Assembly: GCA_031276485.1 (NCBI GenBank)
Contig: JAISMY010000009.1
Coordinates: 1-36,953 of the forward strand
Direction: 5' to 3'
DNA from: Desulfovibrio sp.
GTDB taxonomy: Bacteria > Desulfobacterota > Desulfovibrionia > Desulfovibrionales > Desulfovibrionaceae
Length of the DNA: 36,953 nucleotides
Of the stretch, positions 12,356 through 12,765 are shown piece after piece (positions within the stretch are counted from its first letter, which is position 1; every line of letters begins with the position of its first letter). Under the pieces are notes generated by a model. The model searched no databases, was not told the origin of the DNA, and was given only the letters and a program-made list of their open reading frames with translations. Position numbers and translations under genes: made by a program.

Positions 12356-12424
12356 CGCGCTCCGCACCCCGATCTCCCTTTGCCCCCGCCTTGACCCGCC
12401 TGCCCCTCCGCCCGGCGCGGACAA

Positions 12425-12600
12425 GAAAAAAACCCTCGGTTGGGGGGAGCCGAGGGTTTTCATGTGAAGAAGACCTTCACATAATCCGGTAAAAGGAGGG
12501 ACCGGATTTTTGGGATAACCGAACATAACCTTAGGGGGGAAGGCCGACGCACGTTAGGGGGGAACGCTTGCCGCATTCGGTTGCTTATATTTATGCAAAG
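12425..12600 (-). ncRNA. Candidate C-rich multi-hairpin sRNA or attenuator leader upstream of the GT61 gene
   Basis: Minus strand: two TTCCCCCCTAA(C/G)G direct repeats, hairpin AATCCGGT-CCCTCCTTTT-ACCGGATT, hairpin GTGAAG-GTCTT-CTTCAC, then terminator AAAACCCTCGG-CTCCCCCCAA-CCGAGGGTTTT plus T-run. Confidence 0.5.
12429..12460 (-). terminator. Rho-independent terminator
   Basis: Perfect 11-bp stem AAAACCCTCGG/CCGAGGGTTTT followed by T7 on the minus strand. Confidence 0.85.
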
Positions 12601-12726
12601 GCTGTGCCGGCTCGGCATAGACGCTGTCCTTTCCAGGATTATCCATATATTACCGCGTAATACGTAATACTGACGCACCCGGCGTCCGGCCGCAGGCCGG
12701 CAACGACCGCTGCGTGTCCGCGCACA

Positions 12727-12765
12727 TATGAGCGTTTTCGCTCATAATGTGTTCATTTTCGCACA
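12727..12765. promoter_or_regulatory. Tandem palindromic operator-like sites
   Basis: TATGAGCGTTTTCGCTCATA (perfect 20-bp palindrome, 12727-12746) and TGTTCATTTTCGCACA (12750-12765); centres 21 bp apart. Confidence 0.5.

Follow-up and report, generated by a model that had tools for sequence, protein, structure and literature searches.

A small RNA with repeated C-rich loops behind a sigma-54 promoter in Desulfovibrio, probably a relocated relative of Dv_sRNA2

Results

A multi-hairpin RNA gene between GAPDH and GT61

The window analysed here is a stretch of 36,953 nucleotides from Desulfovibrio sp. (contig JAISMY010000009.1). On its minus strand, with GAPDH and GT61 genes as neighbours, lies a gene for a small RNA of about 159 nt (12425-12583), which was recognised from its fold z-score, covariation and covariance-model matches. 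The RNA opens with a multiloop (12517-12582), in which an outer 8-bp stem (12582-12575 with 12524-12517) surrounds two hairpins with C6 loops, i.e., Hairpin A (12545-12573; loop CCCCCCT, 12562-12556) and Hairpin B (12528-12544; loop CCCCCCT, 12539-12533). An earlier note on this DNA had pointed out the two C6 blocks, and both are present at 12562-12557 and 12539-12534, but it had missed that they are the hairpin loops of a closed multiloop. Hairpin C (12483-12508) has the 8-bp stem and the CCUCC-bearing loop that the note described; its loop CCCTCCTTTT (12500-12491; CCCUCCUUUU in RNA form) is anti-Shine-Dalgarno-like. The small hairpin noted as GTGAAG/CTTCAC was found at 12482-12462 (Hairpin D), with a stem of 8 bp (TGTGAAG/CTTCACA) instead of the 6 bp named. 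Likewise, the terminator hairpin with its C6-repeat loop and following T-run is present at 12461-12428, but the stem has 12 bp and not 11; the loop is CTCCCCCCAA (12449-12440; CUCCCCCCAA in RNA form), and the U-run after it carries the element to 12425. A simple terminator scan did not list this terminator, because its 10-nt loop exceeds the limit of 8 nt in that tool.

In the window RNA, C-runs or CCUCC occupy the loops of four of the five hairpins, and three of these loops are C6. The minimum free energy was −55.5 kcal/mol, while dinucleotide shuffles gave −37.5 ± 3.6 kcal/mol (z = −5.04), and none of the 200 shuffles folded as well. On sequence grounds, there is strong support for a genuine trans-acting sRNA whose C-rich loops recur ahead of its terminator.

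The sigma-54 promoter and upstream sites

A sigma-54 promoter, CCGGCACAGCCTTTGC (GG-N10-GC; −24/−12), was found at 12595-12610 on the minus strand, with a predicted transcription start at about 12583. It fits the published Desulfovibrio sigma-54 consensus, tGGcacg/tTGCt (PMC4641369). The −24/−12 element GGCAY-N5-YTGC sits 25-29 nt before the RNA 5' end in all 14 copies from the genus (see below), and the background frequency of this pattern in the genome from which the window was taken is about one in 27 kb of strand. Further upstream, the minus strand carries three enhancer-like sites (12711-12765), namely TGTGCGAAAATGAACACA (12765-12748), TGAGCGAAAACGCTCA (12744-12729) and TGTGCGCGGACACGCA (12726-12711), which probably bind an NtrC-type activator. 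Neither the promoter nor these palindromes just upstream of the RNA (12765-12595) had been noticed in the earlier note. Sites of the TGTGCG/CGCACA type were present upstream of 13 of the 14 genus copies, and the fourteenth copy had only 39 nt of upstream sequence. In most copies their distance from the RNA is about 125-185 nt, and in genome G014 it is greater; such spacing suits an enhancer-binding protein. The genus-wide pattern TGNGCGN4CGCNCA was also tried for these sites and was discarded as too permissive, its matches being mostly noise.

Conservation and covariation within the genus

Close copies of the window RNA were confined to the genus in BLAST searches. A covariance model built from five BLAST copies (R1) found 13 copies in 12 of the 15 genus genomes, with two in G012. 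A second model trained on the window's genus only (R2) recovered a held-out copy in G003 (E = 2.4e-17), likewise behind a sigma-54 promoter, and the two models together gave 14 copies in 13 of the 15 genomes. An R2 match in G006 (E = 3e-4) was not counted, as no recognisable sigma-54 promoter was found at the right place. R1 also gave matches outside the genus at E of about 1e-3, and the five best, on inspection, were terminator-only or unrelated sequence.

In the alignment of 13 copies, which was fitted to the structure and hence leans towards it, standard pairs filled 94.6% of the cells, 38 of the 50 base pairs changed on both sides, with such pairs in all seven helices, and the covariation score was 0.524 (shuffles, 0.224 ± 0.014; slid partners, no more than 0.110). 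Independent minimum free energy folds of single copies gave the same architecture. Double-sided changes were seen in seven of the eight pairs of the multiloop outer stem, in seven of eight in Hairpin D and in seven of twelve in the terminator, where 100% of the cells are paired.

The loops keep their C-runs on these changing stems. Every one of the 13 aligned copies has consecutive C residues in the loops of Hairpin A (5-7), Hairpin B (4-6) and the terminator (5-7). The loop of Hairpin C holds CCCTCC or a C-run in nearly all copies, and CCCUCC is kept in most. The Hairpin D loop is usually not C-rich, the exception being a C6 in the second G012 copy. Three to four of the five hairpin loops per genus copy contain CCCC or CCCTCC (13 copies), while the shuffle mean was 0.3-0.7 and the maximum 3.

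The earlier note had suggested an sRNA analogous to the cuckoo (alpha-r14) and UCCC-motif RNAs, and this suggestion is supported, since the stems covary and the C-runs of the loops are kept. The covariance-model check across relatives that it proposed thus found both the structure and the C-rich loops conserved. Its Rfam check gave no family for the window RNA at the gathering threshold, so that no known unrelated RNA was indicated, and a permissive search gave only a sub-threshold ar14 alignment.

Gene neighbourhood

The GAPDH gene lies upstream of the RNA in the five closest genomes, and GT61 lies downstream in the window genome only. The more distant copies adjoin histidine kinase genes, transport genes and others, on either strand. 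In G005 and G008 (L052, L053) and at the second copy of G012 (L068), the RNA is divergent from histidine kinase genes (a HATPase protein and a PAS hybrid kinase); these kinases are possible partners of the regulator described below. The G005/G008 kinase was considered as a fixed partner of that regulator and was rejected, because it is absent beside the regulator in other genera.

The GT61 open frame (12526-11123, minus strand) reaches back into the RNA, and automatic callers may therefore annotate a gene of 467 aa whose start codon falls within the sRNA; translation probably begins instead at the GTG near 12366. The opening codons of GT61 (12370-12290, minus strand) are similar to those of another gene, which lies after the RNA in G001, G002 and G012; in G012 the frame of this other gene runs on into what looks like a cupin-type protein. 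The resemblance suggests a gene replacement at GT61, with its junction near the start codon.

An NtrC-type response regulator is linked to C-loop RNAs in other genera

In G014, the RNA is located directly 3' of the gene for a 518-aa NtrC-type response regulator. The ortholog in the window genome (G000:C80:12492-14012) is unlinked from the RNA and has receiver, AAA+ sigma-54 activator and Fis-type domains; the receiver, sigma-54 activator and Fis-type Pfam domains were confirmed in the G134 ortholog. The consensus of ten orthologs carries the motif GAYTGS, and G014 has GAFTGS. Within the genus, 12 of the 15 genomes have an ortholog (E < 1e-115), and so do several further genera of the family; in an order-wide sample searched at a stricter cut-off, every match fell inside the same family. 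All 12 regulator-bearing genomes of the genus also have the RNA, the two genes being unlinked in all but G014. Thus, the regulator is present in 12 of the 13 RNA-bearing genomes; in the remaining one, G011, which is 82% complete, it was undetected. Searching the window genome with PF00158 gave 11 strong sigma-54 activators. One of these, at 421-1872 on the plus strand of the window, is another NtrC-type response regulator gene and is not of the DVU0679 type discussed below.

In genera g50, g9, g21 and g15, the regulator stop codon is closely followed by upstream sites of the type seen in the window's genus, a sigma-54 promoter and then an RNA bearing runs of C5-C10. Many of the C5-C10 runs in the regulator-linked RNAs of other genera fall in hairpin loops. 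The whole unit of upstream sites, sigma-54 promoter and C-loop RNA is repeated in tandem in some genomes, giving three cassettes in G022 (L110) and two in G086 (L113). The best R2 match in G086 (genus g9) was the regulator-linked RNA itself (E = 1.1e-6), so that sequence and structure, and not position only, tie the genus RNAs to the regulator-linked RNAs. R2 did not recover the more diverged RNAs of g50, g21 or g15, and the case for their homology accordingly comes from position, promoter and loop design. No C-run array followed the regulator in the orthologs examined from g3, g18, g46 and g8. Histidine kinase genes are located just upstream of the regulator in some other genera.

Two variants of the arrangement were observed. 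In G029 (g16; L116:8941-9282) and G088 (g11; L120), the sigma-54 promoter is separated from a long array of C-run hairpins by a small open frame, which in G029 had no Pfam match. The g21 RNAs (L111, L112 and L127), found about 200-400 nt past the regulator stop, share long blocks outside the C-loops, for example ATTGCCAGCGATTAGGCGT or GATTCAGACCAACCTATCTTG, and comparison of these blocks suggests an extra conserved domain.

Discussion

Relationship to Dv_sRNA2 of D. vulgaris

In D. vulgaris, the response regulator DVU0679, which carries the motif GAYTGS, targets Dv_sRNA2 downstream of its own gene. Dv_sRNA2 is sigma-54-dependent and was detected on tiling arrays, its function being unassigned in the 2011 report (PMC3333781; PMC4641369). 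The regulators found here share with DVU0679 the NtrC-type organisation of receiver, sigma-54 activator and Fis-type domains and the unusual GAYTGS, and in G014, g50, g9, g21 and g15 a C-loop RNA stands, as Dv_sRNA2 does, behind a sigma-54 promoter directly downstream of the regulator. DVU0682, three loci from DVU0679, is listed as a transcriptional regulation gene (PMC4641369), and the gene order in G172 (CI/S24-type regulator, receiver-histidine kinase, PAS histidine kinase, regulator) fits this numbering. The RNA of the window's genus differs in that it lies away from the regulator locus in all but G014. The comparison covered 288 Desulfovibrionaceae genomes, D. vulgaris Hildenborough not among them, and the link to Dv_sRNA2 is one of signature and gene order. 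From the common GAYTGS and the G172 gene order, therefore, the window RNA is probably a relocated relative of Dv_sRNA2. No description of C-loops in Dv_sRNA2 was found in the literature on it (PMC3333781; PMC4641369). The novelty of the window RNA is limited by this probable D. vulgaris counterpart; judged by the literature searched, its structure and C-loops, the occurrence of the system across the family and the move away from the regulator within the genus appear not to have been described before.

Comparison with other C-loop RNAs

The alpha-r14 or cuckoo sRNAs of Alphaproteobacteria (NfeR1; RF02344) have three hairpins, each with CCUCCUCCC unpaired, and a terminator (PMC10746234). The window RNA resembles them in its repeated C-rich anti-Shine-Dalgarno motifs in unpaired regions, its stems free to diverge and its terminator, but it comes from a different phylum and has C5-C7 runs and one CCCUCC loop instead of CCUCCUCCC in each hairpin. 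Against RF02344 it scored 32.9 bits (E = 2.2e-4 on 601 nt), well below the gathering threshold of 58.8. The Actinobacteria-specific 6C RNA binds several mRNAs through C-rich loops without chaperones, according to a title cited in PMC9569102. Its stable hairpins with loops of about six C make this a resemblance of design and not of membership; the window RNA, in contrast, has five hairpins and a sigma-54 promoter, and it gave no match to the 6C Rfam family at the gathering threshold or at E up to 10. In Xanthomonas, the apical loops of sX13 (4C, 4C and 5C) repress mRNAs with G-rich motifs near the start codon, independently of Hfq (PMC3771888). The several C-rich apical loops are again a likeness of design: sX13 has three stems and lies next to polA, whereas the window RNA lies beside GAPDH and GT61, and no sequence relation is shown. 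RepG of Helicobacter pylori, in which the loop UCCCCCU targets a homopolymeric G-repeat in an mRNA leader (PMC8295292), also shares a C-rich loop, but it has a single targeting loop and a phase-variable target and belongs to a different phylum. The C-loop sRNAs of Actinobacteria (6C), Alphaproteobacteria (alpha-r14), Xanthomonas (sX13) and Helicobacter (RepG) are apparently of separate origin. In design the window RNA is a C-loop sRNA of the known kind; what sets it apart is its family, its phylogenetic range and its control by sigma-54 and a two-component system.

Proposed mode of action

We propose, with a probability of about 0.6, that the window RNA is a trans-acting sRNA, that the DVU0679-type regulator and sigma-54 drive it, and that its C-loops lower the translation of mRNAs with G-rich starts. 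The phosphorylated regulator (the ortholog at G000:C80:12492-14012) would bind the TGTGCG/CGCACA-like upstream sites and activate sigma-54 RNA polymerase at the −24/−12 promoter. The 159-nt RNA would then be made, stopping at its own terminator, and four of its five loops, with C-runs or CCUCC, would base-pair with several mRNAs where their translation starts are G-rich or carry a Shine-Dalgarno sequence, and so lower their translation. By analogy with 6C, sX13, alpha-r14 and RepG, pairing of the C-loops with G-rich translation starts is likely. The RNA with its covarying structure and terminator, the promoter element, the upstream sites and the co-occurrence with the regulator can be read from sequence; we infer the driving regulator, the signal sensed and the antisense action.

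The sequence GGGGGGAG, the exact complement of the loop sequence CUCCCCCC, is present before some start codons in 416 kb of the window genome, including the flhB-like start at G000:C53:26079-26091 (minus strand) and the gcvPA-like start at G000:C90:5258-5274 (plus strand), these two names being our own reading of the protein sequences and not the outcome of a family search. Among perfect complements upstream of ATG in the window genome and three relatives, none was conserved at orthologous starts, and we therefore claim no target.

Alternative explanations

Across copies, the C-runs alone are constant, their length and flanks being variable, a pattern that would also fit protein binding. Titration of a protein is for this reason a serious rival to antisense action: the C-loops of the same sigma-54-controlled RNA would sequester a C-tract-binding protein instead of mRNAs, as CsrB and RsmZ do in their way. 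The RNAs CsrB/CsrC and RsmX/Y/Z are driven by two-component systems, have multiple hairpins with a repeated GGA loop motif for CsrA, and often occur in several copies. The present RNA is similar in its two-component regulator, many hairpins and repeated loop motif, but its loops are C5-C10 runs and not repeated GGA. The bound protein might, for instance, be of the cold-shock, S1 or KH type, or it might be Rho, which prefers RNA rich in C. A near-identical loop motif on diverging stems, run lengths that vary between C5 and C10, tandem cassettes (as many as three, in G022), the two-component control and the lack of conserved target sites all fit such a sponge. We nevertheless judge it unlikely, since base pairing is how tested C-loop sRNAs work (sX13, and 6C by its title), the analysis identified no candidate protein, and Hairpin C keeps its anti-Shine-Dalgarno-like CCCUCC loop in most copies. 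A wider idea is that of a Gac/Rsm-like circuit across the Desulfovibrionaceae: the RNA made under the two-component regulator, present in several copies in some genomes, would use its C5-C10 loops to titrate a C-tract-binding protein or to engage Rho, and would not pair with individual mRNAs. We consider this slightly less likely still.

The same sRNA could also be driven by a sigma-54 activator other than the DVU0679-type regulator. The window genome offers 11 strong activators, one of them within the window; in most of the genus the RNA and the DVU0679-type gene lie at separate loci; and in G011, which carries the RNA, no regulator was detected. The linkage of regulator and RNA in G014 and in other genera, with upstream sites of the same kind, and their co-occurrence in all but one of the RNA-bearing genus genomes make this decidedly improbable. 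A cis-acting attenuator leader, which would stop transcription ahead of GT61 under some condition, had been the second reading of the earlier note. The terminator indeed stands about 60 nt before the plausible GTG start of GT61, whose frame is open back into the RNA. However, GT61 is not conserved beside the RNA; the other copies have their own sigma-54 promoter and unrelated neighbours. In addition, there is no conserved antiterminator pairing, and the terminator is paired in all 13 aligned copies. The leader reading thus has very little chance of being right, and we return to the trans-acting sRNA under DVU0679-type control as the preferred explanation.

Significance for the Desulfovibrionaceae

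The RNA family has been seen so far only in the Desulfovibrionaceae, where one particular two-component regulator appears to activate it. The Desulfovibrionaceae thereby gain a well-covarying C-loop family whose probable transcriptional handle is a sigma-54 response regulator. A structure and a likely mode of action are suggested for Dv_sRNA2: the RNA that follows DVU0679 would have C-loop hairpins, a prediction that can be tested, D. vulgaris being a sulfate reducer amenable to genetics.
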